Source: a virus. Taken from it: DNA of 34,375 nt. Shown here in pieces: positions 8,263 through 34,375 of this stretch (position 1 is the first letter of the stretch; each line of letters starts with the position of its first letter). Location of the stretch: positions 1 to 34,375 of IMG/VR virus record IMGVR_UViG_3300017788_000089; one strand, written 5' to 3'. A model generated the notes under the pieces. That model saw only the letters and a program-made list of their open reading frames with translations. It searched no databases and was not told the DNA's origin. The position numbers were made by a program, and so were the translations under genes.

Positions 8263-10515
8263 ATGTCAATGTCTAATAGTCCTTATAAACCATCATTGAG
8301 CAATGAAACTAGTCTCTCAAAATTTATTGACAATCTTTATGATAGAATTCATACATTAGAACAAGTTGTAAACAGAATCGGTTCAGAGACAAAGATGACA
8401 AAAAAAAGAAGGTTTGCTACAAAAAAAAGTGGAGTTGTTTTAAATGGTTTAACTCGTGCTTTGTGCGTAGAAACTATTGATCCTTATAAAATGAACCGTG
8501 TACGATTTTTTCATCCACTTCTTCATAATCCCAAGGCAACTGTTTGGAGTCTTCCTTTTGCCAAACCGATATCTGCTATGGGTGGATTTGATGATTGTGG
8601 CCTTAATTGGGTGCCACCAGCAGGCAGCACTCTGATGATTCTATTTGAAGGAGGTAGCGTTGACTCGGCTTTTTATCTAGGAACTGCTTGGCATAAAAAT
8701 CGTGGCGTCGGTGGACAAGACATTATGGAAATTTTTCCATCTAGAGAATATGAAAGTGTTTACAAAGGACATAGAAAAGGTTATTTAGTTGGGCCTGATG
8801 ACGAGAGTCAGGTGTATCCTCCTTGGAACACAGAGTCTTATAATAGCGGTGATATATTTTTTAATGCACAATTCTCGCTCAACCCAAATGAACAACGGAG
8901 ATCGACTTATCCTAATATTTATGGATTTAAAACTCCAGAGAAGCATATGGTGAAGATGGTTGATGGCAATGCCAAATGTAATCGTCGCTGGAAGAGAATG
9001 GAGCTTATGTCTAGTTGCGGAAACTGGCTGATATTCAAAGACGATCATTTGCATTATGGGGGTCAATGGGCTAATCCTAAATGTCCTCCTAATCCCGGTG
9101 GATCTCCTATTGATGTTTGTTCAAATCACGAATCAACTTTACCTTATTTTAGCGATTTTCATGGCACGCCCATAGAAAAATCAGCAGGCTGTGAACCTAA
9201 TTGTGAGTGTCCTAGAGAAGAAGGACAAACTTGCTCGCCAACTCAGTGCTCCAATATTTTAGGAGGACATACGCCTACTCCATGTGATCCAAATACAAAA
9301 CACTGTGATTCACAAAGTGGATCGAATCGTTTCTTTAAACATAAAAATGAATGCAGGCCGTATCGTGGACCCGGCACGCCTCAAAACAACAGGTGCGATT
9401 TGCCTCAAACCGGTATTCAATTTTTATCTATATCTGGACACAGTTGGGTTATGGATGACTCAGTGGAGGAGCCATCGGGTGTTCCACTATGGGAACGAAG
9501 TATGGATAATTTTAACTTTGGATGCAACAACAAATATCTTGGAAGAACTTATTGGAAAAGTGCAACTGGACACTCAATGATGATGTCTGATGTGGAAGAA
9601 TTAAGTGAGCTTAGAGGAAAAGATAACTTTATTAGGATAAAATCTGCGACTGGCAATAGAATTGAGTTAAATGATCATACAGTCGGGGAGCCTGAGAGGG
9701 GTTGCCCTCCTAATTATGCTGGAGAAGAAAGAGGTATTCATTTAGAAAGTACTTCTACGCATAAAATAAAAATGATAGACCATATGAACGAGCAATGTTC
9801 TCCGAAAAGACAAGAAGGAGGAAATCCTACTCCAAAAGCAACAAAAGCCTATATTCAAATAAAATCAGGATATGGTTTAGAAATGAGATTTAATGATGAC
9901 TTTAGTCAACAACAAACACAGAGTCAATGGATTCAAATTTTACATCCTCAATGTGTTGATCCCGATAGTGATGATACTTGTAATAGCAAAAAAGGTTGTG
10001 GCTATAGAGGCCCACACATATTGAGATTTCAAGGAAGGCCGAAAGGCCAAGCTGGGGTTGTGTTTCTAAGAGCAGGAGGCCACTCTGTTCGTCAAACATA
10101 TGATATGGATGTCGTTATAGTTGGAGATAAAGAGTGCAATCCATCCGATAAGTTTACATATGTCTCTAAAAATAGAAACTCAGTTGTTGAGAATATAGAT
10201 TTTAGATATGCTGGAGAAGAACATATATTTGTTGCAGGAACAAGAATATCTCTATTGGCTGGTAGAGACTGCGGTCCTCCTCCGGGTAAAAAATGTAAAG
10301 GGCCATGTACTTATCCAGTAATAATTGCAAGATGCCCAATTGTTTGTCCGCTTACTAATATAGTTCATTGGTCCATTTATTCTGTTAGTGAAAGGGTGTT
10401 TGCTTCGGGTTGGCGATGCTTGCCTCCTCCTGTTCCGGGAGAAAATGGGCCTTGTTCAGAAGATGAAGAGTCTTCGGTTAGTATTGACACCGGAGCAGGC
10501 ACTGTTACTGTTTGA
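8263..10515 (+). CDS. Baseplate central spike, gp5/VgrG-like, cysteine-rich
   Basis: 750 residues. A short N-terminal helix (21-40) precedes an OB-fold-type domain at about 75-150: NRVRFFHPLL, then GLNWVPPAGSTLMILFEGG, then AFYLGTAWHKN, the usual gp5/VgrG/gpV order. From about 386 to 550 a strand motif recurs: SISGHSWVMDD, SATGHSMMMSD, SATGNRIELND, STSTHKIKMID, IKSGYGLEMRFND. This fits the repeating triangular beta-helix of tail spikes. No lysozyme domain is recognised between OB fold and repeats, unlike T4 gp5. There are 29 cysteines, densest at 310-329 (C310, C314, C316, C324, C329) and near the C-terminus, suggesting metal sites or disulfides. AAGG stands nine bases before the ATG. Confidence 0.78.
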   Translation: MSMSNSPYKPSLSNETSLSKFIDNLYDRIHTLEQVVNRIGSETKMTKKRRFATKKSGVVLNGLTRALCVETIDPYKMNRVRFFHPLLHNPKATVWSLPFAKPISAMGGFDDCGLNWVPPAGSTLMILFEGGSVDSAFYLGTAWHKNRGVGGQDIMEIFPSREYESVYKGHRKGYLVGPDDESQVYPPWNTESYNSGDIFFNAQFSLNPNEQRRSTYPNIYGFKTPEKHMVKMVDGNAKCNRRWKRMELMSSCGNWLIFKDDHLHYGGQWANPKCPPNPGGSPIDVCSNHESTLPYFSDFHGTPIEKSAGCEPNCECPREEGQTCSPTQCSNILGGHTPTPCDPNTKHCDSQSGSNRFFKHKNECRPYRGPGTPQNNRCDLPQTGIQFLSISGHSWVMDDSVEEPSGVPLWERSMDNFNFGCNNKYLGRTYWKSATGHSMMMSDVEELSELRGKDNFIRIKSATGNRIELNDHTVGEPERGCPPNYAGEERGIHLESTSTHKIKMIDHMNEQCSPKRQEGGNPTPKATKAYIQIKSGYGLEMRFNDDFSQQQTQSQWIQILHPQCVDPDSDDTCNSKKGCGYRGPHILRFQGRPKGQAGVVFLRAGGHSVRQTYDMDVVIVGDKECNPSDKFTYVSKNRNSVVENIDFRYAGEEHIFVAGTRISLLAGRDCGPPPGKKCKGPCTYPVIIARCPIVCPLTNIVHWSIYSVSERVFASGWRCLPPPVPGENGPCSEDEESSVSIDTGAGTVTV

Positions 10516-10522
10516 GGTTTTT

Positions 10523-10945
10523 ATGAGTAAAAAATTTTTAGGATTACAATATCCATTAGTAAATACTGCAAGGGGAGTTTTGGCCCAAAAAACAGGTGTT
10601 GACCAAATAAAAGCAGATTTGCTTCAATTATTGTTAACAAATCCGGGAGAACGTGTTATGCTCCCGTCTTTTGGAACACCTTTAAGGAATTTAATTTTTG
10701 AGCCAAATGATATTAATTTAGAAATCAGAGCGAGAGATGTTATAACGCAAGCTATATTAAACTGGGAACCTAGAATAGTAATATCTGATATTGAAATTAC
10801 TTCTAATATACCAAAATCCGCTCTAAATCAATATGATAATTATGACGAGCAAGAAGCTATATTATATATTAAAATAAAATTTATAGATCCAGAGAATATT
10901 CAGCAAGTCGAAGAATTAGTTTTAGAAAGACCAATCGGGGGTTAG
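10523..10945 (+). CDS. Baseplate wedge protein, gp25/GPW-like
   Basis: 140 residues from the ATG at 10523, chosen because GAGG lies six bases upstream; a longer reading from 10388 would run far into the spike gene. Residues 33-62 carry LLQLLLTNPGERVMLPSFG and FEPND, the signature of the GPW/gp25 family (T..GER...P.fG.....FEP). The family forms part of the inner wedge and is related to T4 gp25 and Type VI TssE. The stop is one base before the next ATG. Confidence 0.9.
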   Translation: MSKKFLGLQYPLVNTARGVLAQKTGVDQIKADLLQLLLTNPGERVMLPSFGTPLRNLIFEPNDINLEIRARDVITQAILNWEPRIVISDIEITSNIPKSALNQYDNYDEQEAILYIKIKFIDPENIQQVEELVLERPIGG

Positions 10946-10946
10946 C

Positions 10947-12503
10947 ATGGCTTTAGAAAATTGTCCTTTTGATATAACACCTTATGATCAATCAAGTCTT
11001 GTAAAAATTCCAAAACTTGCAAATTTAAATTATACTAATCAAGATTTTTGGTCTATGAAATCTAGATTAGTAGATTTTATTAAAGAAAAATTTAGTGATT
11101 CATTCAATGATTTTGTTGAATCTGATCTTGCAATTATGCTTATAGAAAATTGGGCATTTATTGCTGATACTCTTAGTTTTAAAATGGATCAAATTGCAAA
11201 CGAAATTTTTATTGACACTGTGAGTGAGGTCGATAACGCATTTAGATTGGCAATGTTAGTTGGATTCAAGCCTCAGCCACCAATAGGCGCAAGGTCTCTT
11301 TGGTCTGCCAATATATCGAATTTGTTAGAAACTAATTTAGAAATTGAAACTCCTGTTTCAATACCTATAGACACAGAGGTCGGGCCAAGATTTATTGAGC
11401 TTTACGCAGCAGACAATAATAATCAACCGATATTCGGGCAAAGCATTTACATCCAATCTGGTACTTTTTTAACAACTTCCATAGTGGGATTAGAAGGAAG
11501 GACATATTTAGGTGGATCTGTTGGCACAGGAGAGCCGAATCAATTTGTTGCTTTATCAAATTTTCCTGTGATATTTAATTCCATTAAAGTAACTGTTGAT
11601 GGAAATGAATGGACGCAAGTGGATTATTTTACAGATTCTCAGCCAAGAAGAGAATTTAGAGTAGAATATTCTCCATCTTATGCTGCTTTTGTAATTTTTG
11701 GAAACAATAGAGCCGGTCAGATTCCTGCTGTTGGTGCGCAAATCGATATAACGTATAGAGTCGGTGGTGGGGTTGCGGGCAATATAGTTACTGGTGCTGC
11801 TGATTTTCAGACCAATTTTATTGTTCCGGGCTTTAGTTTTAGTGTTCCTGTTACTTTTAGAAATTTTACAAAAGGGGAGTTTGGTTATGCAGGTGATACT
11901 CTTGAAGACATAAAAAGAAAACTACCGTACTGGTTAAGAACACAAGACAGAACGGTATCTGGCGATGACATCGAAATTTTTGCTGGTCAGTTTGCAACAG
12001 AATTTAATGGACAAGTTGGAAAAGCAAAGGCAATATTGAGAAACTATGGATGTGCAGCGAATGTTATTGATCTTTATGTTTTAGCAAGAGAAGATGCAGA
12101 CAATTTGGTTTCTCCAGACAATGGACTTAAGGTAGAGCTTCAAGGTGCTTTGCAAGACAAAAAAATGCTCACAGACCTCATTTGCATTAAGGATGGTGTT
12201 GTTGTTGAAGTAGATGTTTTAGTTGATATTACAATGAATAAGTTTTACAGAAAATTTGAAGAAGAATTTAGAGAGAGGGCAATTAGAAGAATAAATGGAT
12301 TTTTTCTATTAAATAATTGGGATTACGGAAAAACTTTAAAATCAGTTGATCTTATAAAGCAATTGGCAGATGTGCCTGAGATAACTTCTACGGATGTTCA
12401 TTTTCAAACAACATCTGAGCAAAACTCAGGTGAGGTTGTAACAACAAAATTTTATGAAATAATTAGACCAACCAATATAACTATAACTTTTGTATACGAA
12501 TAA
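10947..12503 (+). CDS. Baseplate wedge protein, gp6/baseplate-J-like
   Basis: 518 residues, starting one base after the gp25-like stop. Residues about 55-95 (FVESDLAIMLIENWAFIADT and SFKMDQIANEIFIDT) match the N-terminal helical region of gp6/gp47-type wedge proteins. The middle has the GDD-type segment DTLEDIKRKLPYWLRTQDRT leading to an 'SGDDIE' turn, as in baseplate J. In T4, gp6 dimers form the ring that holds the baseplate together. The stop at 12501-12503 abuts the next ATG at 12505. Confidence 0.85.
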   Translation: MALENCPFDITPYDQSSLVKIPKLANLNYTNQDFWSMKSRLVDFIKEKFSDSFNDFVESDLAIMLIENWAFIADTLSFKMDQIANEIFIDTVSEVDNAFRLAMLVGFKPQPPIGARSLWSANISNLLETNLEIETPVSIPIDTEVGPRFIELYAADNNNQPIFGQSIYIQSGTFLTTSIVGLEGRTYLGGSVGTGEPNQFVALSNFPVIFNSIKVTVDGNEWTQVDYFTDSQPRREFRVEYSPSYAAFVIFGNNRAGQIPAVGAQIDITYRVGGGVAGNIVTGAADFQTNFIVPGFSFSVPVTFRNFTKGEFGYAGDTLEDIKRKLPYWLRTQDRTVSGDDIEIFAGQFATEFNGQVGKAKAILRNYGCAANVIDLYVLAREDADNLVSPDNGLKVELQGALQDKKMLTDLICIKDGVVVEVDVLVDITMNKFYRKFEEEFRERAIRRINGFFLLNNWDYGKTLKSVDLIKQLADVPEITSTDVHFQTTSEQNSGEVVTTKFYEIIRPTNITITFVYE

Positions 12504-12504: not shown

Positions 12505-15500
12505 ATGGCAATTAAAAAAATAAATGAAAATCCAAAAATTACCGATAAAATTTTATTGGAAATAAAAACACCCGATGCTCAGGGTTGTTTTTCTAGTAAT
12601 CCTTATAAAGTTGATAGTGTAATAATATATTACATAGAAAGAGATTTTTTAGGAAACAATTATGGTGAATATGATAAACAAGTAACCTCTGATGAATTAC
12701 AAAAACAATTAAAAAAAGCAGAGGCCGAATTATGTGATGATCCCACTCAAAACAATTTAGAGAAATTAAATAATATTAAAATAGAGATTAAATCTTCTTC
12801 TCAAATAAATAAAATTTATTATAAAGACAGATCTGCAATAAAGGTAATAGGATCTGAGAATTTTCCTGCTTGGCTGACTACTGATATAGAGAATTCTTCT
12901 TTAGTTCTTGTTCCTTATGATGAAAATGGAAATTCTCAATTTGGTAATTTCGTTTATGAGTGGGATCCTAAAGGATCAATTCGTGAAGGAGATTATTTTG
13001 TTTGTTGGACTTGGACGCCATTGCCTGCTGGAGAGAAATTATCCGCACACATACATTTTATAGTTGAGGGAAATAGCAGTGCGGTTGTGGTTGTCCCTTA
13101 TCATTCAACGCCAGAGGGCAAGTACGAAGCTTTGTTGGAGAGATATCTTCCCGAAGTTTATAAATTCACATTATCGAATAATGACGTTACTCCGAAAACT
13201 ACTGAGAATTTTAATTTAGCTATTGCTAAAGGATTTTCTTTTCTTGAAGATATGGCAAATCAAATTATAGATTTATTTGATTCTAATGCACTTCATGAAT
13301 CCATGTTGAGTTACCTATCTAATACATTTGCTATAAAATTAAGATCAAGTGATCCCACCTTGTGGAGAAGACAAATAAAAGAAGCATTCCCTTTAAACAA
13401 AAGAAAAGGAACATTAAGAGGTCTTGAAGATGCTTTTTCTCAAAGTGGGATGAAATTAAATTATTTTATTCAATATTGGCAATTAACTTCAAAATACTAT
13501 TGGATTGAAACATTCACTGTGGAGGATAAAGATTATTTTATTCTTGAAAAAGAAGATATTATTTTAGAACAAAGCACTTATACCGAAGACAATTATTTGG
13601 AATTATATTTAAAAAGAAAAGACTCAGCGGATTTTTTATCGATTTCAAAAGATAGCGTATCTTTTGAAAACACAGAGGGTGGTCTTGTGAAAATGAATTG
13701 GATAGGAGATCAATTGTCTGTGAATGGGATGGATCTTTTTGAAGGAGATGTAATTAAAATAAAATATCAATTTAAAGAAATTCCATCAGCCACAGAGGCT
13801 TCTTTGGATAATTATATACAACTTCTTCCTTTGATGGATCAAAGAAATGAGAATGATCAAGTTTATCCGCCAAAAAATTGGAACGTTAGATTAATAGCAG
13901 AAGACGATCCCTTATTTTCTTTATTGATTCCTGTTCGCCATCCATTTGCTGATCCTTTGCAATTTGGTTGGTTAAGAACTGAATTTGCTTACTCTGAAAA
14001 TATCTATAACGCAGAGGAGTATAACGGATCGATTAGACCTTCTTTCGATGCTTGTCGCATAGATAAAAATTTTATTGATCCTTGTGGTGCTTGTTTAAGT
14101 AGTTCTTATAGTGTTGATATTGGCGTGGAAGAACTAAGTAATGACAGGTTAATTGAAGCACAAGACATATTAAACGAATACACGCCTTTTCATGCTCAAA
14201 TACATTCTATAAATTTTACTGGAGAGGTAAATGAATTTATTCAATCTCCTGTTGAGCAAATAGATACATTAATCACAATCGATTACGTACAAACCGTACT
14301 TTCTGGAAATTCAAATCCTATTTTTTACAGAAACATAGAAGGAGGCTTAAGTAATTGGATTATCACAAGAGAAGATCTCACTGACCAAAACACAGTTCTA
14401 TCTGGAAAAACTGGCATTGCTTATAATGACAAGATTGTTATGATAACTCCAGATCATAATTTAAGTAGTCTGGGTGTTATATGGAACAACCATATAATTA
14501 AAGTTTTATCCCCATCTGTGAATTATGGTGATTACACAATCGATCAAATTCAGGGATCTATGGCGAGAGTAACATCCCCAGTTGTGGAACCGTTGGATAA
14601 AAGTGCTTTTACATTTAATTTATTTAATATAACTTATAAAACAACTACTGCCTCTATAACACAAGATAATTTAATAGTTTTATCTGACGATAGTGTTAAT
14701 TTTTCAGAGCTAGGTGTCAAGAGCACTTGGGATAAAGAAAATACTAGTGGTTATGTTGGTGATTATTGGAAAATAAAATTTCCAGAGTATTCTGATTCTT
14801 TTTACGAAATTTTAGACGTTGCTAATGGAATGTTGATTATTAAAGGAGACTCAATTCTACCCTCATCTGATTCGTCTGGCGTTGGTTATATTTTATATGA
14901 TGATCAAGATAATCAAATTGAAACTAGTGAAATAGGCAATTTAAAAATAACAAAAAGAGGCCGAGTCAATTTAAACGATACTGCCATAATAAATATATTT
15001 GATTTTGTTAAACCGGGAGATCTATTAAACTACAATGAATTAGATTATAATATTTTGGAGATACAAGAGAATGAACTGCTTATTGATGGTTATGATGATG
15101 GTAATGCTTTTGGTGTTTCTGTACAGACTCGTAAAATTTTAATAAAAGAAGGTATAGGATACTTTGGATATAAAGGTCTTAATTTGATAACTGCAAATGA
15201 TCATGAATCTGAGTTTGAGATTCTGAATGGCGAAAATTCAGCCCCAATATCAGAGTGGACGGATGATAGTAATTTTAAAGAGAATTATCTGTTTAAGATA
15301 GGGGATGAGTTCTATAAGATTATTTCAATTAATAAAGAAAAAATCGTATTAGAGGGTAGAGAGCAGGATTGGATGACTAAAGACATTGGTGGAACTAATG
15401 TTTCTTATTCTTTGGTTCATTTTCCAAAAAAACAAGTGAATGTCGGATTTTACGTATTCGATCAGTTGGGTAGATCCGGTCAAGATCCAGTTGTGCGAGA

Positions 15501-15648
15501 GATTTACTCTGATATTGACAAAAACACAGCTATAGTTGCTTTGTCTTCGCCAAAAGGAAGTGGAGTACAAGAAAATATTGTTCAGGATGAAGGAATTAAA
15601 ATAGAAATAGAAATGAAAGACGGAGAAAAATTTGAAGGAGAATTATGA
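12505..15648 (+). CDS. Tail protein I-like baseplate protein with long beta-rich C-terminal extension
   Basis: 1,047 residues from ATG 12505; an in-frame TTG at 12490 lies inside the gp6-like gene and is less likely. Residues about 209-320 match tail protein I (P2 gpI-like, the wedge-to-fibre connector): LLERYLPEVYKF, then FLEDMANQIIDLFDSNALHE, then WRRQIKEAFPLNKRKGTLRG. P2 gpI is under 200 residues, so the rest is an extension. From about 640 to the end a short strand module seems to repeat (GDYWKIKFPE..YEILDV, GDLLNYNELDYNILEI, NYLFKIGDEFYKIISI), each followed by a hydrophobic strand and Gly. I infer a chain of small beta domains reaching outwards. It overlaps the next gene by ATGA. Confidence 0.7.
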   Translation: MAIKKINENPKITDKILLEIKTPDAQGCFSSNPYKVDSVIIYYIERDFLGNNYGEYDKQVTSDELQKQLKKAEAELCDDPTQNNLEKLNNIKIEIKSSSQINKIYYKDRSAIKVIGSENFPAWLTTDIENSSLVLVPYDENGNSQFGNFVYEWDPKGSIREGDYFVCWTWTPLPAGEKLSAHIHFIVEGNSSAVVVVPYHSTPEGKYEALLERYLPEVYKFTLSNNDVTPKTTENFNLAIAKGFSFLEDMANQIIDLFDSNALHESMLSYLSNTFAIKLRSSDPTLWRRQIKEAFPLNKRKGTLRGLEDAFSQSGMKLNYFIQYWQLTSKYYWIETFTVEDKDYFILEKEDIILEQSTYTEDNYLELYLKRKDSADFLSISKDSVSFENTEGGLVKMNWIGDQLSVNGMDLFEGDVIKIKYQFKEIPSATEASLDNYIQLLPLMDQRNENDQVYPPKNWNVRLIAEDDPLFSLLIPVRHPFADPLQFGWLRTEFAYSENIYNAEEYNGSIRPSFDACRIDKNFIDPCGACLSSSYSVDIGVEELSNDRLIEAQDILNEYTPFHAQIHSINFTGEVNEFIQSPVEQIDTLITIDYVQTVLSGNSNPIFYRNIEGGLSNWIITREDLTDQNTVLSGKTGIAYNDKIVMITPDHNLSSLGVIWNNHIIKVLSPSVNYGDYTIDQIQGSMARVTSPVVEPLDKSAFTFNLFNITYKTTTASITQDNLIVLSDDSVNFSELGVKSTWDKENTSGYVGDYWKIKFPEYSDSFYEILDVANGMLIIKGDSILPSSDSSGVGYILYDDQDNQIETSEIGNLKITKRGRVNLNDTAIINIFDFVKPGDLLNYNELDYNILEIQENELLIDGYDDGNAFGVSVQTRKILIKEGIGYFGYKGLNLITANDHESEFEILNGENSAPISEWTDDSNFKENYLFKIGDEFYKIISINKEKIVLEGREQDWMTKDIGGTNVSYSLVHFPKKQVNVGFYVFDQLGRSGQDPVVREIYSDIDKNTAIVALSSPKGSGVQENIVQDEGIKIEIEMKDGEKFEGEL

Positions 15649-16118
15649 TTAAAGAAAGCATAAAAACAAAAGGTGATGTTGAAATAATTTTAGATTTTAA
15701 AAATAAAAAATCAAAAATTATAAATTTCCCCAACACAGTTTTACTTACAGGTCGTAGAGCTTTGGCAAAATCTTTGGCCAATCAAATTGGAGAAAAGTAT
15801 CAATTTAATATAACAAGAATGGTTTTTGGAGATGGAGGAACAAATAATGGTGTTAAAAAATTTGTTAATGCTGGTCGTGAAGGATTGTTCGGAGTAACAA
15901 GATTATCCAAACCTGCATTAGCCAATTTAGACACAAGTGTTCCTGCACAAGCTATTTTCACATCTGTAATTAAATTTGATGAAGCCGTTGGGGTAACTCT
16001 GAACGAAATGGCATTACAAATGGCTGACGGAGGTTTATATAGTATGGTTACTTTTCCTGACTTGAATAAAACAGAGGACATGCAAATAACTTTTAATTGG
16101 AGACTTAATTTTGTATAA
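15645..16118 (+). CDS. Baseplate/fibre-associated structural protein of unknown family
   Basis: 157 residues, translationally coupled to the preceding gene by a 4-base ATGA overlap. I do not recognise a named family with certainty. The protein is mostly beta, with NFPNTVLLTGRRALAKSLA (28-46), MVFGDGGTNNG (59-69) and an LNEMALQMADGGLYSMVTF segment near 120-140, ending in ITFNWRLNFV. This pattern (start of a Gly-rich 'fG.GG', then 'lnE.aL...dG.l.s..tF...... i.w.i.f') recurs in phage proteins encoded beside tail protein I and fibres. I infer an adaptor between baseplate and fibre. Confidence 0.5.
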   Translation: MIKESIKTKGDVEIILDFKNKKSKIINFPNTVLLTGRRALAKSLANQIGEKYQFNITRMVFGDGGTNNGVKKFVNAGREGLFGVTRLSKPALANLDTSVPAQAIFTSVIKFDEAVGVTLNEMALQMADGGLYSMVTFPDLNKTEDMQITFNWRLNFV

Positions 16119-16168
16119 AAATAGTTTTTGCTAAAACCATGTATAAGAAATAATTAAGGAGATTTATA

Positions 16169-16990
16169 ATGCCTAGAATTGAATTAATACCTGAAGTTTT
16201 ATATGGTCCATTGGACCCTATACATTGGGAAATTGACAACATTCCTTTAAAGTCTATTTTAAGAAGACAAAATTTAATTAATTTATCCTTAGACAATGTT
16301 TTGGCTCAAATGCGAGATGCAATTGGAACTCAGGGAAGTCTCTCTAATAGACTAAATCAATCAATTAATGATGATGGAAGTCTTAAGTCTAGTGCTGTAG
16401 ATCAAACAATGCACAGCATAGAAGAACACTCTGACAGTGATTTGTATGTTAGAATGACTAGGGAAGAATCAGAAAAGTTAGCAAATATTTCAGAAGAAGC
16501 AAATAATTTGGGTTTAGAAATATTTACTAATGATATTAATTTTATCGAATTTAATAATGGTTTATTGAAGATTAAACCATCCACAACTATCGTTCCAAGT
16601 TTTGAAGCACCCGATGTTGTTAAGTTCAATATAAGTTTTCCTGCCGAGTCTGCTCATCAACATTATTATGGATTAGTGCCTGTAGATTTGAACGGAGTTG
16701 ATCCTGATAGGAAAAATTTTAAAGTAGCGAATACCGAACTATCCACTGCATTTATAGAAGGCAGTTTAAGGGTTTATATTAATGGAATGAGAATATTCGA
16801 AGACATGTACAACCACCATAACGAGGGATCAGTCCCCCTCGAAGGGGTTTACGTTCCCGGTTCTATGGTTGACAATGCTTGGACTCTTATGTCTTTTACT
16901 AGCGATTTTACAAATGGAACTTTTGAATTATCCTCTGCATTATCCGATGATGATGTAATTCGCATTGATTTTGACAAGGCTTTACTATGA
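16169..16990 (+). CDS. Tail fibre/adaptor-like structural protein
   Basis: 273 residues; AAGGAG seven bases before the ATG supports the start. The N-terminus (PRIELIPEVLYGPLDPIHWE) looks like an attachment segment. The middle is helical and polar (70-115). The C-terminal 90 residues form a strand-rich domain: GSLRVYINGMRIFEDMYNHH, then FTNGTFELSSALSDDDVIRI, then DFDKALL. This resembles end domains of phage fibre and collar proteins that state a 'value and an offset' strand pair, but no catalytic motif is visible. I infer a virion appendage subunit. The stop overlaps the next start (ATGA). Confidence 0.5.
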   Translation: MPRIELIPEVLYGPLDPIHWEIDNIPLKSILRRQNLINLSLDNVLAQMRDAIGTQGSLSNRLNQSINDDGSLKSSAVDQTMHSIEEHSDSDLYVRMTREESEKLANISEEANNLGLEIFTNDINFIEFNNGLLKIKPSTTIVPSFEAPDVVKFNISFPAESAHQHYYGLVPVDLNGVDPDRKNFKVANTELSTAFIEGSLRVYINGMRIFEDMYNHHNEGSVPLEGVYVPGSMVDNAWTLMSFTSDFTNGTFELSSALSDDDVIRIDFDKALL

Positions 16991-17520
16991 ATGTTGGCTT
17001 TATCGTTTTAAGTCCAGACAGAAACGTGGCTGGATTAAAAAATACTATAGGCTCTATAAAAATGAGATCTTATAATAGAGATGCCATATGCGTTGTTGGA
17101 AATGACGCAACTTCAAAAGAAATAAAAGAAATGAAAGAATTTTGTCCTACTTTTAAGGGCAAAAACACAATAACGAGTTTAATAAATATTGGACTTAAAA
17201 AATGTTCTTGGGATTGGGCTTGTTTTGTTTTTGGAGGCAGCAGGATTCCACGTTGTTTGGAAAAAAAATGGAATAATTTTTGTAAAGAAGAAACACATGT
17301 ACTTTATTGTTTGGCTGAGGGAAAAAACGATTTTGTTCATGGTTGCTTTAATGGTGTTTTAATAAATGTAAATTTTTTTAATAAAGTAGGACAATTTCCA
17401 GAGATAAGTATGAGCAAGCAAGGGTTAAACGATTTTGAACTGGCAAAATTAATGTGGGCATCAGATGCTTTATCTCATGGAGTTATTTTTAAAGGAATTC
17501 TTGGAGCCAGAGTGATTTAA
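16987..17520 (+). CDS. Small glycosyltransferase-like protein (GT-A fold, tentative)
   Basis: 177 residues, coupled to the previous gene by ATGA. The N-terminus GFIVLSPDRNVAGLKNTIGS (4-23) followed by AICVVGNDAT has the strand-helix-strand order of a GT-A nucleotide-sugar binding domain. WACFVFGGSRIPRCLEKKW (77-95) sits where GT-A enzymes carry the DxD metal motif, but here it reads FGGS, so the acidic pair is missing. NDFELAKLMW near 150-160 resembles the late 'ED.el..r' helix. It may be an inactive or altered transferase, or a metal-independent one. The role is not proven. Confidence 0.4.
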   Translation: MNVGFIVLSPDRNVAGLKNTIGSIKMRSYNRDAICVVGNDATSKEIKEMKEFCPTFKGKNTITSLINIGLKKCSWDWACFVFGGSRIPRCLEKKWNNFCKEETHVLYCLAEGKNDFVHGCFNGVLINVNFFNKVGQFPEISMSKQGLNDFELAKLMWASDALSHGVIFKGILGARVI

Positions 17521-17900
17521 TGAGTTATCCTTTAGGTTGGATTGTTAGAATTAAAAACGAACAAGGAACATCAGTAGTTTTTCCTCTACTTAATTATCAT
17601 TGGGAGTATGATATTAATTCTTGTTATAAAGGAACTATAAATTTAACCATAGAATCAAACTTAGTTGAATTAAACAAAATTTATAAATTTCAAAAAAATT
17701 CACTTTGTTCAATAGAATGTATACCTCATTATGAATTTAATCAAAAATTTTGTATAAATTTTATAAGTGAAATTAAATTTTCTATAAATAATGAAGATGC
17801 TATTGTGAGAGCGGATTTGTACTGTAGATTCCACAATATAAGGATTGGGAGAGTTGAAACTTTTTTTAATCAAAACAATTGGTTAAAAAATGGTTTTTAA
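17520..17900 (+). CDS. Small beta-rich protein of unknown function
   Basis: 126 residues, starting in the TAATG overlap with the preceding gene, so probably made from the same transcript. I do not recognise it. The composition (alternating hydrophobic and polar residues, many Asn, Ile and Phe; four Cys) suggests a beta-sandwich. Placement suggests a tail or fibre accessory protein. Its stop overlaps the end of the convergent minus-strand gene by four bases. Confidence 0.6.
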   Translation: MSYPLGWIVRIKNEQGTSVVFPLLNYHWEYDINSCYKGTINLTIESNLVELNKIYKFQKNSLCSIECIPHYEFNQKFCINFISEIKFSINNEDAIVRADLYCRFHNIRIGRVETFFNQNNWLKNGF

Positions 17901-18484
17901 ATATTTTCTAAATACTTTCTTATTAAAACCCACTCATGAGACATTTCTAATGTTCCATTATTTATTTTTTCTAATTCTTCTATTACTTGTTCAAAATTTT
18001 CAAAAACATTACATCTTTTATTTTTACTAACATCATCTAGATCGATAACTCCAAATAACCATCTCGGTAGTTTTTTAAGACCTCCTTCACAAACAAAAAA
18101 AATAGGTTTGTGCTGCTGCTCTGCTGTAAATATTTCATTATAAGTTCCACACATATGAACATTGGGATCTACTAGTGCAACTAAAAAATCTGATATGTCT
18201 ACAAACCTTAGATCCGCTCTTCTGTAGGCAGAGACATATTGTTTCAATTTTAAAAATTGACCTGTTTCTTGAAGTTCTATTTGCGTTTTTTTGTCTTCTT
18301 CAATTAGAGAATCTTCTTTTCCGGGTTTATTTGTTGGGTCAATAAACTTAATTTGTAAACCTTTTTGTTGACATAATTTAATAAATTTTCTTCTCCAAAT
18401 AACGCCATTGTCTTTTGCATATTCCATGGGTCCAGACAGGTAGCACAAAGATTCGTCTAATTTTCCTTCATTTTTACAATTCAT
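17897..18484 (-). CDS. Nucleoside 2-deoxyribosyltransferase-like protein
   Basis: 195 residues on the minus strand, with AAGGA eight bases before the ATG. YLSGPM at 15-20, followed by a WRR at 30-32, is the nucleotide-binding start of nucleoside 2-deoxyribosyltransferase and related folds. DFLVALVDPNVHMCGTYNEI (99-118) holds the conserved 'D..va.vdp....GT..E' element, with E117 the likely catalytic glutamate. The family moves deoxyribose between bases or cleaves nucleosides and nucleotides. It is one of few minus-strand genes, between convergent and divergent neighbours, so it looks like an inserted accessory gene. The true substrate (nucleoside, nucleotide, or NAD-like signal) cannot be told from sequence. 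Confidence 0.68.
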   Translation of the reverse strand: MNCKNEGKLDESLCYLSGPMEYAKDNGVIWRRKFIKLCQQKGLQIKFIDPTNKPGKEDSLIEEDKKTQIELQETGQFLKLKQYVSAYRRADLRFVDISDFLVALVDPNVHMCGTYNEIFTAEQQHKPIFFVCEGGLKKLPRWLFGVIDLDDVSKNKRCNVFENFEQVIEELEKINNGTLEMSHEWVLIRKYLENI

Positions 18485-20263: not shown

Positions 20264-22660
20264 ATGATACCAGAGAGTTCTTTATACCCAGATGCTTTAG
20301 ACAGCAATAACAATTTATTTGAGGTTCATGATTCTATTCGTGCAATTTTATTAGAAGATTATAATCCCGGAGACACTTCAATAGTTGTTGAAGCAGATTT
20401 TTTAACTGCTTCTAGAATAACGCCTACTGGTCTAATAACTCTAACAGAGCAATGCTCTGATATCGACAAGAGAGCTATTTCTTTTTATTACAGTGGGTGG
20501 GATGCTGATACTGGGGTTTTCTCTGGACTAGAAAGATTACCTGAGTTTGAAGATGTTGTTAAGCCAAAAAAAATAACAAATGTAATAATGAATGTTATGT
20601 CTATGCATCATAATCATTTAAAAAATGCATTAATTGAAATTCAAAAATTTTGTGGAAAAAAAGGCTTGGAAGATAATGTTCCTTTTGGCCCAACTTTAGA
20701 AGGAAGAATAAATTTTTTAAGAAGACTTGTTTTGCAACCAAAGGCTTGGTTTACAGCAAACAAAACTACAGGAAATACTCCCTTAGAAGTTGAATTTAAA
20801 AATATGAGCTTTAGATTGGGCACAGACGGAACTTCAGATGAGGTCACTGTTAGTTGGGACTTTGGAGATAATTCAAGCAATGTATCAACAATAAGCAATG
20901 TATCATATATAAGCAATGTATCAAATATAAGCAATGTATCAAATATAAGCAATGTATCAAATATAAGCAATGTATCAAATATAAGCAATGTATCAAATAT
21001 AAGCAATGTATCAAATATATCATGCTCCGTGGTGGATCCTGATTCTGGGATTGATGTAATTGTGGGTGAAAACGGATTAATTAAAAAAATATACAGAAAA
21101 GCAGGCTTATACGATGTCAAACTAACTGTAGAGAATAACTTTGGAAAAGATGAAATTATTTTTTCAAAATTTATAAATGCAAGAGTAAAAGCTCCAAATA
21201 AAGCTGTGATAGATTTTGTTTCTAATAGTTCTAATCAACAAACATTTGCTGGCGTTCCTCCTAATGGGCCATTTGAAATAGTTCCCAGAATACGTTCTCC
21301 TATTAATACTTTAATAAATATTGAAATAAAAGAAGGAAAAAACTTTGCTACTCCCGGATTTACTTATGGGGGTGAAGCTTTAAACGAATGTGGGCTTCCT
21401 TTAGACCCAATTCAGAGTTACTCTTGGTTTTTGGGAGATGATTTAACTCATCCAAATAGTAGAGACACAAAAGCTTCTTATAGTGTCGGAGGAATATACG
21501 ATTTAAAATTAAGAGTAGACACAGAGTTTGGTGCTTACAGAATTACAACATATAATCAAAGTATTGATATTGTTGAAAATACAAACTTATGGCTTTGGAC
21601 AATTGATCAATCAAATATAACAAAGGTTTATGAATATGGACTAATTAGCGAAACATATAAACTTGTTAATGCCCCACAGTATCCTGTTTCAATAAATGAA
21701 AGTTTTTTAAATAATCAGCCAGATACTGCTCGTGCTGGCATGAAATCCGAGTTTCGCAGAAACAACGGAATAGCTCCAAAAAGTAACACATCATCAGGAC
21801 AGAGCGGCTTAGCATTAATATATTGGGCAAGCGGAAGGAACCAATCCGACCCTATTTCTGTAGAAAACATAAGAGCAGTGGAGTTTAATGGATTTACAGG
21901 CACTTATGTTTCTAGAAATTCTATCTCCAAGCCATGGAATTGGATAAATTTAAATTCAAATACAAATTCATATTTTGTGTTCGGAACCATAGGATCCTAT
22001 GAGCCTTCTGTCTCACCTGTTGACAATTCTAAAACAACTTTATCGTTACTTGATTTATCTCAAACATCTAATAGTTTTAATGATGCTAATTTTTTGAACG
22101 GATCACAAGAACTTTTAGAAAACATATCTTTATATGACTCTGGCGGAAATAGCGTTTATGGACACTACAGCGTTTATCGGTCCACTTGGAAAGATAATAC
22201 AGGGTTTTTCACAAGAAATGATGGAGTGGGTCCATTTTTTAGAATTAAAAGTTTTTATAGAACTGAAGGCACTTTAGTTAATCAATTTCAAAATATACGA
22301 AAACTTCAAGATATTCAAGGCCCAACAAAATTAAATGGACAACTTACGAGTTTGAGTAGCGGAATTTATTTCTTAAACAATTCTGGAAGTATATCAAAAT
22401 TTAATAATGAAACAGAGAGTTGGTCTACTGGTGGTCCCGGTGTCAATTCGTTGCTTTACAGAAATTTACAGGATACATCCGTAGCTGGATTTGATAACTC
22501 TGCTAATTCTCTATTGTTGGCATCAGACAAGGATAAAAGAGCCTATTTGAGTTTTGATTACAGCAATAATGCTTTTGTGAAGTTTAGTGAAATAGATCTT
22601 ACTTTTAAAAGTCTAGGAAGTAGACCAGTTGGTGTTCAGTGGTTGACGGGTATATATTAA
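20264..22660 (+). CDS. PKD-domain fibre-like protein 2 with SNVSNI repeat insertion
   Basis: 798 residues; AAAAGG lies five to ten bases before the ATG. The N-terminal link domain (about 20-150) ends in SMHHNHLKNALIEIQKFCG, matching the previous gene. A first PKD domain starts near 165 (EVEFKNMS, SWDFGDNS at 197-204) and is interrupted by eight copies of SNVSNI (205-252), then resumes at about 253-300 with GLYDVKLTVENNFG. A second PKD domain carries YSWFLGDD (about 386-393) and GGIYDLKLRVDTEFGAYR. From about 445 to the end there are Trp- and Asn-rich strands (LWLWTIDQSN, YVSRNSISKPWNW, SLLLASDKDKRAYLSF) that could be a propeller-like receptor-binding tip (inference). Confidence 0.72.
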   Translation: MIPESSLYPDALDSNNNLFEVHDSIRAILLEDYNPGDTSIVVEADFLTASRITPTGLITLTEQCSDIDKRAISFYYSGWDADTGVFSGLERLPEFEDVVKPKKITNVIMNVMSMHHNHLKNALIEIQKFCGKKGLEDNVPFGPTLEGRINFLRRLVLQPKAWFTANKTTGNTPLEVEFKNMSFRLGTDGTSDEVTVSWDFGDNSSNVSTISNVSYISNVSNISNVSNISNVSNISNVSNISNVSNISNVSNISCSVVDPDSGIDVIVGENGLIKKIYRKAGLYDVKLTVENNFGKDEIIFSKFINARVKAPNKAVIDFVSNSSNQQTFAGVPPNGPFEIVPRIRSPINTLINIEIKEGKNFATPGFTYGGEALNECGLPLDPIQSYSWFLGDDLTHPNSRDTKASYSVGGIYDLKLRVDTEFGAYRITTYNQSIDIVENTNLWLWTIDQSNITKVYEYGLISETYKLVNAPQYPVSINESFLNNQPDTARAGMKSEFRRNNGIAPKSNTSSGQSGLALIYWASGRNQSDPISVENIRAVEFNGFTGTYVSRNSISKPWNWINLNSNTNSYFVFGTIGSYEPSVSPVDNSKTTLSLLDLSQTSNSFNDANFLNGSQELLENISLYDSGGNSVYGHYSVYRSTWKDNTGFFTRNDGVGPFFRIKSFYRTEGTLVNQFQNIRKLQDIQGPTKLNGQLTSLSSGIYFLNNSGSISKFNNETESWSTGGPGVNSLLYRNLQDTSVAGFDNSANSLLLASDKDKRAYLSFDYSNNAFVKFSEIDLTFKSLGSRPVGVQWLTGIY
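20876..21019 (+). repeat. Eight tandem 18-bp repeats encoding SNVSNI
   Basis: Eight 18-bp units (AGCAATGTATCAAATATA) run in frame. Units 3-8 are identical; unit 1 ends CAACAATA and unit 2 has CATATATA. Every unit adds six residues, so changes in copy number keep the reading frame. Confidence 0.97.
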
Positions 22661-25884: not shown

Positions 25885-25942
25885 TAATTAAATTTTATCA
25901 CCATTGAAGAAAAAAATCAATAGCAACATACTATATAAGTAT

Positions 25943-27049
25943 GTGAAAACAATAGCCAAAATCAAATTAGTAGCAGACAAAAGCGAAAAACAAGTGCTTT
26001 TAAGAACAGTTGAAAAATTCAACGAAGCCTGCAATGAGATTGCACAGACTTGTTTTGAGAAAAAATCAGCAAGTAAATTTGATATACAAAAATTAGTATA
26101 CCATGACATTCGTGAAAAATATGGACTATCAGCACAGTTAACAGTGCGAGCAATTAGCAAAACATGCGAAGCATATAAATTAAACAAAAAGAAACAACCC
26201 AAATTCTTAAAGCACGGTAGCATAACATATGACCAAAGAATATTAAGTTTTAAGGGTTCATTACTTGAAAAACCAAAAGTATCAATCTCTACCCTTGAAG
26301 GAAGAAAATTATTTGACATAGAAATAAGAGAATACTTCAAAGGCAGAGCAGATAGAATCAAAGGACAAGTTGACTTGGTTTACAAAAAAGGTGAATTTTA
26401 CTTGTATGCAACTTGTGATATGCCCGAAGACACTCCGATTAATCCAACTGATTGCCTTGGTATAGACTTGGGCGTTAAAAACATAGCAGTCGATTCAAGT
26501 GGTGAAGTTTTCTCAAATGAAAAAGTAGAAAAAACAAGAGTTAGATTATTGAATTTGCGATCAAGTTTGCAAAAAGCAGGAACTAAAAGTGCAAAACGCA
26601 AATTAAAGAAAATAAGCGGAAAAGAACGAAGATTCAGAAGCGATGTTAATCATTGTGTGAGTAAAATTATTGTTAAAAAAGCCAAAGACACTAATTGTTT
26701 TGTTGCGTTAGAAGATTTGACCAACATAAACAAAAAGACAACGGTAAGGAAAAAACAAAGAGCAGAGCGTTATAGTTGGGCGTTTTATCAACTGCGAACT
26801 TTCATAAATTATAAGGCTAAATTAGCAGGAATTCCTATTGTTTTAGTTGACCCAAGAAACACAAGTAGAACTTGTAGTGTTTGTGGTCATTGCGAAAAAA
26901 GTAATAGAAAGAACCAAGAAGAATTTTGTTGCAAAAAATGCAAGCACGAAGATCATGCTGACTATAATGCCGCTAAAAACATAAGAAATAAAGGGCTGCA
27001 TCAATCAGCCTATTGTTGTCCGTTAAACAACTGTTCAAAGGTTGCTTAA
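25943..27049 (+). CDS. tnpB: TnpB, RNA-guided DNA nuclease
   Basis: 368 residues from GTG 25943, chosen because TnpB proteins normally begin with the 'KTIKIKL' strand and here VKTIAKIKL follows directly; TTG 25904 would add 13 residues. There is no clear ribosome-binding site for either. The N-terminus carries KFNEACNEIA, typical of the family. RuvC motifs are complete: LGIDLGVKN (D175), FVALEDL (E257) and DHADYNAAKNI (D340). A zinc finger has C311-x2-C314 and C330-x2-C333. TnpB cuts DNA next to a transposon-specific motif, guided by an RNA made from the right end of its own element, which helps keep the element at the donor site. The enzyme looks intact. Confidence 0.93.
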   Translation: MKTIAKIKLVADKSEKQVLLRTVEKFNEACNEIAQTCFEKKSASKFDIQKLVYHDIREKYGLSAQLTVRAISKTCEAYKLNKKKQPKFLKHGSITYDQRILSFKGSLLEKPKVSISTLEGRKLFDIEIREYFKGRADRIKGQVDLVYKKGEFYLYATCDMPEDTPINPTDCLGIDLGVKNIAVDSSGEVFSNEKVEKTRVRLLNLRSSLQKAGTKSAKRKLKKISGKERRFRSDVNHCVSKIIVKKAKDTNCFVALEDLTNINKKTTVRKKQRAERYSWAFYQLRTFINYKAKLAGIPIVLVDPRNTSRTCSVCGHCEKSNRKNQEEFCCKKCKHEDHADYNAAKNIRNKGLHQSAYCCPLNNCSKVA

Positions 27050-28443: not shown

Positions 28444-29037
28444 ATGTCAGTTTTTAAAGTAAAATTAAATAACAACATACAAGGTCGATTAGACATAAAC
28501 CCTACAACAGATACTAGCGAAACACAGGGTTATATTGGTGTTCCTTTCAGCATATCGAAACAAAGACAAATTTTTGTTGCTGGTCCTAATAAAAAATTAA
28601 GAACACTCAGCGATGGAGATGTTTTTACCGATTGTAATTATTGGAAACAGTTTACGGTGGAAGAAGCTGGAGAGGAGTTTGGCTTTATAGAGGTTGTTTC
28701 AGATGACGGCTCGATTTATAGCGAAATTCCTGAGGAGAATACATTTTCAATAGGAGAAACCCTTACATTAACAACAAGTTTCTCAGATAATGCCATTGAT
28801 TTTATTGAAACTTATGGAAATCCTTTGAGATTTCTTATGATTCAAAATCTAGATTCATCAATAACTGTTACAGGAGAACTAAACGGTGATACAAATATTA
28901 CATTTGTTATTGGTGCAGGAGAAACAATGATGTTTAATCAAGGAGATATGGTCATAACAAGCATTAGACTAAAATCTGCATCAGGAACACCAGATATTAG
29001 TTATATTGCGTCTATCAGAAGCTCTTGCACTAGTTGA
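28444..29037 (+). CDS. Beta-rich structural-looking protein of unknown function
   Basis: 197 residues from ATG 28444, chosen because AAGGTG lies seven bases upstream; a GTG at 28435 overlaps that site. It is rich in Thr, Ser, Ile and Gly with few Lys/Cys, and has many short strands (GDVFTDCNYWKQFTVEEAG near 60-80; TVTGELNGDTNITFVIGAGE near 145-165). The C-terminal 60 residues look like a jelly-roll-type domain. Likely a virion or fibre protein; no family recognised. Confidence 0.55.
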   Translation: MSVFKVKLNNNIQGRLDINPTTDTSETQGYIGVPFSISKQRQIFVAGPNKKLRTLSDGDVFTDCNYWKQFTVEEAGEEFGFIEVVSDDGSIYSEIPEENTFSIGETLTLTTSFSDNAIDFIETYGNPLRFLMIQNLDSSITVTGELNGDTNITFVIGAGETMMFNQGDMVITSIRLKSASGTPDISYIASIRSSCTS

Positions 29038-29063
29038 ATAACTTTACTTTCATTTGCTATAAT
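29034..29063 (+). promoter_or_regulatory. Sigma-70-like promoter before the family 9 glycosyltransferase gene
   Basis: TTGAAT (29034-29039) and TATAAT (29058-29063) are separated by 18 bases, close to the bacterial consensus. Transcription would start near 29070, at the ATG at 29071, and no ribosome-binding site precedes that ATG, so a leaderless message is possible. Confidence 0.5.
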
Positions 29064-29070
29064 ATAGCAT

Positions 29071-30060
29071 ATGAAAGTAGTAAGAAGAAAAATAGTATCA
29101 TCTAGACCTTTGGAAAAAAGACCAGAGAAAATTGTTCGTTTTTTGTCTTTAAAAGATTTTTATAACAAAAGAAATAAAATATTAATAATAAGAAACTGTG
29201 GCGGTTTAGGAGACATCTTCATGCATCGAATGATGTTTGAGGATTTTAAAAAATTAATGCCAGATGCTGAGATGCACTTTTGTTGTCCAAAATATTATCA
29301 TGATGCAGTTGTGGATCATCCCTTTGTGGATAAAATTTTAGATTTTAATGAAATTAACAAAGAAGATTATATAATTTCTTACAACACAACAACAGCATGT
29401 GGAAGAACAGAGATGAGGTACGCACCTTTCTCCGGACCACATAGAAGCGATATATGGGCCGAACACTGTGGCCTAACACTCACTGATCATAATATGCACA
29501 TTAATATTTCTGATGATGAGAAACAAGAGGCAAAAAAAATTATAGAAAAAATAAAAGATAGAAATGGAAAAATTGTAGCTGTGGCTCCTGTTTCGGCCAT
29601 GCAGATGAAAAATCTTTTAGATCATCAACTTTTAGGATTAATTAATTATTTAAATAGTAAAAACTTATTTACATTTTGTTTGCATAATACACCTATAAAT
29701 GTTTGTTATAAAAATAATATTCCTTTAATAGAAGAAAAACGAATAAGAATTTGGATGGCTTTATTGAATCAAGCCGATTATGTTATAAGCGTTGACACTT
29801 CTGCATTTCACTGCGCCGGTGGCATGGGCAAACCACTCGTTGGTATATTCACATTTGCCGATGGATTAGTATATGGAAAATATTTTGATTTTATATTGGT
29901 TCAAAAACATAGATCTAGGGACATCAATTGGACATGTGGGCCTTGTTATGCTTGGGGTAATTGTCCTAAAACAAAAAACAATTTAAAACCGTGTTTAACA
30001 GATATTTCTTTAGAAATGATGGTTGAAGCCGTAGATAATATGTTAAAAAAGTGGTCTTAA
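29071..30060 (+). CDS. Glycosyltransferase family 9 (heptosyltransferase-like)
   Basis: 329 residues. GGLGDIFMHRMMFEDFKK (44-61) is the N-terminal 'G.iGD.i...P....l' motif of family 9; the next strand (MHFCCPKYYHDAV) follows as expected. VAVAPVSAMQMKNL (about 168-182) stands in the place of the 'v.i.pga....K.wp' motif. ADYVISVDTSAFHCAGGMGK and PLVGIF (235-260) is the donor-binding 'ad.vig.DTg..HlAaa.g.P.v.lfg' motif, well kept. The end has CGPCYAWGNCPK, the 'c.Pc....C' segment seen in many members. These enzymes transfer sugars from nucleotide donors, for example heptose to lipopolysaccharide. In a phage it may modify host surface glycans or the virion. Confidence 0.82.
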   Translation: MKVVRRKIVSSRPLEKRPEKIVRFLSLKDFYNKRNKILIIRNCGGLGDIFMHRMMFEDFKKLMPDAEMHFCCPKYYHDAVVDHPFVDKILDFNEINKEDYIISYNTTTACGRTEMRYAPFSGPHRSDIWAEHCGLTLTDHNMHINISDDEKQEAKKIIEKIKDRNGKIVAVAPVSAMQMKNLLDHQLLGLINYLNSKNLFTFCLHNTPINVCYKNNIPLIEEKRIRIWMALLNQADYVISVDTSAFHCAGGMGKPLVGIFTFADGLVYGKYFDFILVQKHRSRDINWTCGPCYAWGNCPKTKNNLKPCLTDISLEMMVEAVDNMLKKWS

Positions 30061-30083: not shown

Positions 30084-30296
30084 ATGCCTCAACTTATAAA
30101 GCCCAGCACAAAAATAAAAGTAATTCCCAAAGATGGGGAATTAGAAATTACTTTAAATGTAAATATTACAGTGGATGGAAAAGTTTCAGCTTTTGCAGAT
30201 AATGCCAATGTTTCTGTTGAGGAAGAGGATAAGGCACCACATATTATTCCAGATTTCTTCTCTGGTCAAAAACTTGATTTTGGGAAAAAACAATAA
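30084..30296 (+). CDS. Small acidic protein of unknown function beside the actin-like gene
   Basis: 70 residues; AGAGG precedes the ATG. The first half is a strand-rich piece (KIKVIPKDGELEITLNVNIT), the second is acidic and extended (NVSVEEEDKAPHIIPDFF). The stop is 11 bases before the actin-like start, and that gene's ribosome-binding site overlaps this stop, so the two are co-translated. It could be a partner or adaptor of the filament protein, in the way ParR works with ParM, but it has no recognised DNA-binding fold. Confidence 0.55.
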   Translation: MPQLIKPSTKIKVIPKDGELEITLNVNITVDGKVSAFADNANVSVEEEDKAPHIIPDFFSGQKLDFGKKQ

Positions 30297-30307
30297 AGGA
30301 GGACAAA

Positions 30308-31321
30308 ATGGCTTGTGGATTTGATGTAGGAACTTACAATTTAGTTTGTTGTAAAAGAAATGAACAAAAAGATTTTGTTTATAAACGAGAAGTTAATGCA
30401 TTTTTGTCTATGCCTTTAGATAATGATTTTGTTTTCAATATGATGAAACAAGCCGGTGTGCCTTTGATAAGAAGAGATGATGCAAATATTGCATATGCCT
30501 TGGGAGAAGCCGCCGTAAATATGGCCTATACTATGACGCAACTCGAACTTAGCCGACCAATGAAAGATGGTTGCGTAAATCCAAAAGAACAAGATGCATT
30601 TCAAATTATGAATATTATGATTCATAGTTTGCTTGATGATGTGAGTAAAGATGGAGAAATATTAGTCTACTGTGTTCCTGCCAATGCCATTAACGAACAA
30701 ACCGATGCTGACTATCACCAAAAAATAGTTGAAGCAATTTTTAAAGCCTACAAATCAGAACAAGGACATACTGTCGATGCCAGACCGATAAATGAAGGCA
30801 TGGCATTAGTATATGCTGAGCTTAAAGAAAAAATGTTTACTGGGGTTGGAGTTAGTTGTGGCAGCGGCATGGTCAATGTTGCCTACTCTCTTTTTGGTGC
30901 TCCTGTGTTTACTTTTGCAATTGTAAATTCTGGAGACTGGATTGACAAACAAGCAGCACACGCTACAGGAGAAACAGTTGCTTTTATAAACAAAGCCAAA
31001 ACAAGAGTTGATCTTAATAAAGAACCAAGTAATTTAATAGAACGTGCTATCATAACCCAATACCAGTTGATGATAGAAAAAACTGTAGTGAATATTAAAA
31101 AAGGTTTTGAGGCTAATAAACAAAAAAATGCCAAATTAGATGCCCCAATAGATTTCGTTGTTGCCGGAGGCACAGCTTCTCCTCCGGGTTTTGATAAAAT
31201 GTTTGAAACGCTTTTAAGGCAAGCAAATTTACCAATTGAAATTGGTCGTGTGATAAGGCCAGACGATCCTCTTTACAGTGTCGCTCGTGGTTGTTTAATT
31301 GCAGCAGAGAACGCTAAATGA
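30308..31321 (+). CDS. Actin-like (ParM/MreB/Hsp70-fold) ATPase
   Basis: 337 residues with a near-perfect ribosome-binding site (AAAGGAGG, 30296-30303). The ATPase motifs of the actin superfamily are in order: phosphate 1, GFDVGTYNLV (4-13); phosphate 2, GVGVSCGSGMVNVAYSLFG (179-197); connect/adenosine, VVAGGTASPPGF (284-295). Length matches bacterial actin-like proteins (about 320-350) and not full Hsp70. The Asp of GFDVGT (6) should bind the metal-phosphate; the second motif reads SCGSG where ParM has a DxGG-type element, so activity may differ. Phage actin-like proteins are known to form filaments that place DNA in the cell, but the role here is unknown. Confidence 0.8.
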   Translation: MACGFDVGTYNLVCCKRNEQKDFVYKREVNAFLSMPLDNDFVFNMMKQAGVPLIRRDDANIAYALGEAAVNMAYTMTQLELSRPMKDGCVNPKEQDAFQIMNIMIHSLLDDVSKDGEILVYCVPANAINEQTDADYHQKIVEAIFKAYKSEQGHTVDARPINEGMALVYAELKEKMFTGVGVSCGSGMVNVAYSLFGAPVFTFAIVNSGDWIDKQAAHATGETVAFINKAKTRVDLNKEPSNLIERAIITQYQLMIEKTVVNIKKGFEANKQKNAKLDAPIDFVVAGGTASPPGFDKMFETLLRQANLPIEIGRVIRPDDPLYSVARGCLIAAENAK

Positions 31322-31347: not shown

Positions 31348-31842
31348 ATGACAAAGTACATACACAAGTTTGTTAATGATTTAGGAGTTGCAGCATATGT
31401 TCTTATGCATGGATATGCTGTGATTGGAAAAAAAGGAAGATCTATTTATTTTGAATGCGAGAATGAAGAGGCTTCCAAGGAATTTGATAGATTAGTTTTA
31501 GAATATCAACCGCCGAATGATTTTTATACATTTGATTCTTGTTTAATGTTTTTGAAAAAAATTAATGAAAGCGTCCCAGAAGAGTTGAATGAAAAAATTC
31601 ACAGAACCGTGAGCGATCTTGGAGTTGCAGCCTATCTTCTGATGCATGAATACAGCCCTAAAAGCATAGGCGTAAAAGTAATAGGGAAAAAAGGAAAATA
31701 TGTTTATTTTGAAATTCCCGAGGAAAGGGGCGAGGATTTTGATAGGTTGAGCTATCAATATTTGCCAAGTCAATTTCAAATATATGATTCAAATCTAATG
31801 GCTCTTAAAAAAATTGGCGAACATATGCCAAAAACAAATTAA
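31348..31842 (+). CDS. Two-repeat protein (DUF5659-like domains)
   Basis: 164 residues; AAGGAAAG precedes the ATG. Two copies of one domain are visible (about 1-75 and 83-160). Shared motifs: DLGVAAYVLMHGY and DLGVAAYLLMHEY; VIGKKGRSIYFECE and VIGKKGKYVYFEIP; then EFDRLVLEYQP and DFDRLSYQYLP; then a final LMFLKKI and LMALKKI. The domain resembles DUF5659, a small phage-associated family of unknown function. The internal duplication is clean, so both copies are likely useful. It lies between the actin-like gene and the acidic giant. Confidence 0.6.
   Translation: MTKYIHKFVNDLGVAAYVLMHGYAVIGKKGRSIYFECENEEASKEFDRLVLEYQPPNDFYTFDSCLMFLKKINESVPEELNEKIHRTVSDLGVAAYLLMHEYSPKSIGVKVIGKKGKYVYFEIPEERGEDFDRLSYQYLPSQFQIYDSNLMALKKIGEHMPKTN

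Positions 31843-31906: not shown

Positions 31907-34375
<2,469 letters not shown>

Follow-up and report, generated by a model that had tools for sequence, protein, structure and literature searches.

The window analysed here, a virus record from IMG/VR taken as a whole stretch of 34,375 bases, is probably a fragment. Near its 3′ end lie the following features:

29071–30060, plus strand: neighbouring gene on the 5′ side, glycosyltransferase family 9 (GT9)-like (PF01075 at 24 bits, cut-off 22)
30084–30296, plus strand: small partner gene, 70 residues, encoding a putative adaptor (A2 alignment of 11 homologues and HMM matches)
30297–30307, plus strand: intergenic stretch containing the ribosome-binding site of the actin gene, AAGGAGG (read from the sequence; strongest among 21 starts)
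30308–31321, plus strand: volactin-family actin-like ATPase, 337 residues (PF25216, AlphaFold, structure comparison and invariant residues)
31348–31842, plus strand: third gene of the unit, 164 residues, two tandem copies of a DUF5659-like domain (profile match below cut-off and internal repeat)

Both the 70-residue and the 337-residue open reading frames are found where a preliminary description of this DNA had placed them (30084–30296 and 30308–31321), on the same plus strand and 11 nt apart. The AAAGGAGG that precedes the actin ATG gives the best duplex energy with the anti-Shine-Dalgarno sequence (−11.6 kcal/mol) of 21 gene starts from the window, so that the actin gene does have the strongest ribosome-binding site of those compared, in line with the earlier claim. 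The description had also put the pair ‘next to tail genes’, which is loose: the baseplate genes (a gp25-like wedge at 10388 followed by another baseplate wedge protein at 10947) occupy 10388–12503, some 18 kb upstream of the actin gene, and a tape-measure match at 35–5686 is weak. The GT9-like gene is probably context, outside the three-gene unit of partner, actin and third gene. Just before it, at 29034–29079, an extended −10 promoter-like site overlaps a 17-base inverted repeat and could be the start of GT9-partner-actin-DUF transcription; promoter-like sites occur in the window at chance frequency. On the other side, an open-ended gene (31907–34375, plus strand) encodes a very acidic protein, with a net charge near −90 and stretches of Asp/Glu. 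Its (GATGAG)n run is where the contig terminates, likely an assembly break, and a homologue of the protein follows downstream in only 10 of the 51 loci with room for it. Elsewhere the window holds a TnpB-like IS605 OrfB gene with a Cas12f1-like TNB domain amid late genes (25904–27049, plus strand), a PKD-like appendage protein containing tandem NVSNIS repeats (20264–22660) and, between tail genes, a nucleoside 2-deoxyribosyltransferase-like gene (17897–18484, minus strand).

The 337-residue protein matched the Pfam Volactin profile (PF25216) at 242.1 bits (cut-off 35) over its residues 1–333 and over the entire profile (positions 1–321 of 321), and on this sequence match it is a member of the Volactin family; identity to the volactins of haloarchaeal megaplasmids is about 35%. 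Five further phage records carry a match to the same profile above cut-off, with one copy of the gene in each. Pfam MreB_Mbl reached 27.1 bits against a cut-off of 27 over residues 54–128 only, and the NCBIfam profiles for MreB (22.8 bits, cut-off 293) and MamK (22.4 bits, cut-off 400) scored so far below their cut-offs that the window actin represents a family separate from both. A phmmer search with this protein alone against PDB sequences gave no match, and the volactin-family profile does recover the sequences of MamK, MreB and BeeR. No ParM or StbA family matched in a Pfam scan at E values up to 1 (a PF06406 search of the window was empty and its control equally silent), nor did any Hsp70 or sugar-kinase family in Pfam and NCBIfam, again at E up to 1. 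The chaperone-like (Hsp70) affinity that had been entertained for the protein was thus not borne out: no Hsp70 or kinase profile matched, and the firm placement with Hsp70-like or sugar-kinase-like enzymes that had been named as the refutation of a filament system is not what we found.

Structure prediction provided additional support for this assignment. An AlphaFold model computed from a 50-sequence alignment (pLDDT 92.5, pTM 0.90) had as its nearest solved folds MamK (Z 28.9, 2.8 Å over 293 residues), BeeR (Z 27.3) and MreB (Z about 25–26.1), followed by crenactin and F-actin. The protein is therefore a full-length actin-fold ATPase, as proposed earlier, since the family match extends over the full length and the predicted structure is nearest to filament actins. 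The likeness to MreB, MamK and BeeR lies in the fold (Z 25–29); only about 15–20% of residues are identical to those of MreB chains. An actin fold that resembles MreB in structure would be compatible with a protein for host takeover, acting on host MreB by capping, copolymerisation or disruption, yet this low identity, the uniform conservation of the phage clade, its own partner and its intact nucleotide site all argue against such a function, which we regard as very improbable.

The nucleotide site is readily recognised in the sequence: phosphate-1 is D6xGT9, connect-1 is INE163 and phosphate-2 is S183CGSG187, followed by SGD210WID213 and by the adenosine motif AG287G288T. Residues D6, G8, T9, E163, S183, G185, G187, D210, D213, G287 and G288 do not vary among the 50 volactins aligned, which come from phages, archaea and bacteria, and the signature that the phage proteins have in common with cellular members (DxGT, E, SxGxG, GDxxD, GG) aligns with the MreB motifs, S183 occupying the position of the phosphate-2 aspartate. 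As this serine is invariant across the 50 volactins, the ‘altered’ phosphate-2 motif is the normal motif of the family: SCGSG is present at residues 183–187 as described, but the peculiarity ascribed to it is not. Akin to the window protein, the Haloferax volcanii volactin (HVO_2015, PF25216) shows a full-length family match and the same motifs, including the serine that replaces the phosphate-2 aspartate. Haloferax volactin forms dynamic filaments in the cell and acts in cell shape (PMC10869688). The window type differs from it in being encoded by huge phages and in falling into separate, well-supported clades.

The phosphate-2 loop is also a site of insertion. In six relatives (L021, L022, L023, L024, L025 and L031) an in-frame intein lies inside this loop, in the arrangement GVS[C...HN]CGAG; in L023 and L025 the end of the contig falls within the intein. 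L197, a member of the second phage clade described below, carries a different intein, inserted a few residues later in the same loop (GISFGSGMTN[C...HN]CALA). Inteins tend to be found at conserved active sites in important proteins, and their presence here accordingly fits a working nucleotide site.

The small gene upstream of the actin gene is conserved as well. Its homologues have in common an N-terminal MPQLIKP, a strand segment GE(I/L)xI(T/S)..NINI and a C-terminal IPDFxSGxKLxFGKK, with a variable, acidic linker. The gene is real and conserved, as had been supposed, but the protein is ‘acidic’ only in a mild sense (pI 5.2, net charge −2.4). Of the 73 non-redundant viral loci that extend at least 1.5 kb upstream, all 73 have a match to the partner HMM 5′ of the actin gene and in the same orientation, the two genes most often being spaced by a few bases and sometimes overlapping by 4 bases. 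Six large phage contigs each hold one copy of the partner gene, and a comparison with phage records yielded a match in LR756511 only. In L001, L002 and several of L007–L012, GIY-YIG homing endonuclease genes lie between partner and actin, in gaps of mostly 600–790 bases. The dN/dS ratio of the partner is 0.07–0.13, and values for partner, actin and third gene are mostly 0.01–0.13, indicating purifying selection; conservation over dozens of viral contigs and ratios well below 1 argue that neither of the two open reading frames is a chance occurrence.

The arrangement of a phage actin gene closely preceded by a small gene is reminiscent of the AlpA-AlpC operon of Corynebacterium prophage CGP3, in which AlpA, the co-transcribed upstream adaptor, links actin-like filaments to phage DNA (PMC4446434). 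This gene order would fit a system for genome partition or for placing replication, as in ParMRC or AlpAC, in which the small protein would attach to phage DNA. However, the partner matched no DNA-binding family in Pfam or NCBIfam, is slightly acidic and is mostly disordered in the model; no centromere-like direct repeats surround the cassette, no repeat array of the AlpA or ParR type was found in the window, and AlpC-AlpA belongs to a prophage whereas the pair described here stands in a late-gene neighbourhood of huge phages. The likeness to AlpC-AlpA is one of gene order. In ParMRC, by contrast, the adaptor gene lies downstream of the motor gene and is accompanied by centromere repeats; with the partner upstream, no repeat array and a Pfam scan that gave no ParM/StbA match, the pair is unlike ParM-ParR, in agreement with the preliminary description. 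We therefore consider a partition function improbable.

The third gene matched DUF5659 at 17.2 bits (cut-off 23.6, E=0.0047) and, the match being below cut-off, is named DUF5659-like only; its internal repeat is visible in the alignment. It is found 3′ of the actin gene in 53/53 loci with at least 4.5 kb of downstream sequence, and in some clade A relatives (L003, L012) a gene for the terminase large subunit is situated between the two. Archaeal and bacterial volactin loci have neither partner nor third gene, which sets the phage type apart. As a control for this linkage we scored the surrounding genes in 50 loci with room: g28435 was present in 50/50, GT9 in 42/50 (absent from 8/50) and the others in 41–46/50, so that the whole neighbourhood is fairly conserved and the constant linkage of the trio is only partly specific, being weak evidence alone. 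The strand of g28435, GT9 and g27758 is reversed in L020, the member that diverges most, and the order and strand of the trio are unchanged. Taken together, partner, actin and third gene form a conserved unit of huge phages. In a linked co-fold, for which partner, actin and DUF protein of L147 were read through their stops as a modelling device (with no claim of read-through), the overall pTM was 0.50 and the third protein was folded (pLDDT about 75–93); the partner had a pLDDT below 50 almost throughout, so that no partner-actin interface can be read from this model and binding is neither supported nor excluded by it.

An alignment search of IMG/VR identified 510 candidate loci encoding relatives, of which the best 80 were retained; with the first search, two phage records, the window and L031, these made up 108 loci (78 non-redundant), all belonging to the window's own clade (phage A) with the sole exception of L028. 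The largest IMG/VR contigs among the matches listed measure 532,729, 511,233 and 458,813 bases, and LR756511, a phage record carrying the volactin gene, has 595,163 bases; among 50,697 phage records searched, only two gave a match. A second phage clade (B), 32% identical, comprises L028, L190–L197 and record LR745208 (485 kb); its members have the actin, and no homologue of the partner was found in them. In L028, an N-terminal PPGVYT had suggested a tail sheath (12974–17968), a reading that found no support in PHROGs, in Pfam or in a search for sheath proteins. Each of the two phage groups, A and B, forms one clade at 100/100 support, both apart from the archaeal clade. When a single capture of the gene was compared with several, none of the arrangements placing phage A beside phage B, beside bacteria or beside archaea was preferred over the others (AU p 0.28–0.36). 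Volactin thus occurs widely in a large clade of huge phages, and the preliminary description, although right on the actin fold, had overlooked the volactin family, the third gene and this spread. One locus labelled as a Neisseriaceae MAG (L031, RXKI01000042.1) carries the phage trio together with an intein, and most probably represents a phage contig inside a Neisseriaceae assembly. Volactins without the phage partner are also present in bacterial assemblies (L043, L047, L050, L096, L098, L101 and L103) assigned to Acidobacteriota, Chloroflexota, Patescibacteria, Nitrospirota and Thermodesulfobacteriota.

The results above raise the possibility, which we judge somewhat better than even, that the locus is a phage cytoskeletal module consisting of a volactin actin, an adaptor and a third component. 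On the side of the protein, this reading is favoured by the full-length volactin match, the invariant nucleotide site, nearest folds that form filaments and the filaments of Haloferax volactin; on the side of the locus, by the constant presence of the partner and of the DUF gene, the trio kept in L020, the inteins and the strong ribosome-binding site. Against it stand the co-fold without a readable interface, the conservation of the neighbourhood as a whole and clade B, whose actin was found with no partner homologue. In such a module, the actin would most likely bind ATP and assemble into dynamic filaments within the infected cell, and the 70–80 residue protein made just before it would most likely be a dedicated adaptor or filament regulator, its conserved C-terminal motif binding actin and its N-terminal strand region holding cargo or some other component. 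An accessory subunit would be the most likely role of the two-domain DUF5659-like protein, the third member of the unit. The terminase gene just behind the actin gene in L003 and L012 also speaks for the cytoskeletal reading; our guess as to timing and cargo is that the unit probably works late, positioning or moving genomes, capsids or tails in the cell, much as PhuZ or AlpC-AlpA do but with another actin family as its basis.

The same neighbourhood can be read in another way, with the actin-fold ATPase and its partner acting as a non-polymerising switch or chaperone in tail or head assembly. The terminase gene between actin and DUF gene in some clade A phages fits such a virion-assembly factor, as do the baseplate and appendage genes upstream in the window and the location of the clade B genes amid long proteins resembling virion components, none of them assigned to a family. 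Gene neighbourhood indicates timing at best, however, the structure is nearest to filament-forming actins, the characterised family member polymerises, and no Hsp70 profile of Pfam or NCBIfam matched; we consider an assembly factor unlikely and favour the cytoskeletal module.

The known phage cytoskeletons of jumbo phages are tubulins. Neither tubulin (PF00091) nor the PhuZ and chimallin of phiKZ found a match in eight large volactin-bearing records, which is again in line with a cytoskeletal module, although the PhuZ and chimallin queries were single phiKZ sequences and distant forms may have been missed. Like the PhuZ of phiKZ-like jumbo phages, the window protein is a candidate cytoskeletal NTPase of a giant phage, with an analogous role if filaments form, PhuZ being a tubulin and the protein described here having an actin fold. 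We tentatively suggest, as a possibility short of an even chance, that huge phages without recognisable PhuZ or chimallin build a volactin cytoskeleton for transport or positioning, with adaptor and third subunit, as the actin counterpart of the jumbo-phage tubulin spindle.

Among the papers naming volactin or salactin that we found, in a search covering few subscription papers and hardly any preprints, none dealt with a phage member, and jumbo-phage reviews and the paper describing huge phages describe no volactin; a viral branch of the family, equipped in huge phages with its own set of partner genes, thus appears to be so far undescribed. With it, the known range of volactins comes to include viruses and some bacterial genomes, and the three-gene set is testable, offering a ready partner for biochemistry. 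A volactin retained throughout a large uncultured group of huge phages would imply that actin-based intracellular organisation arose separately in giant phages.
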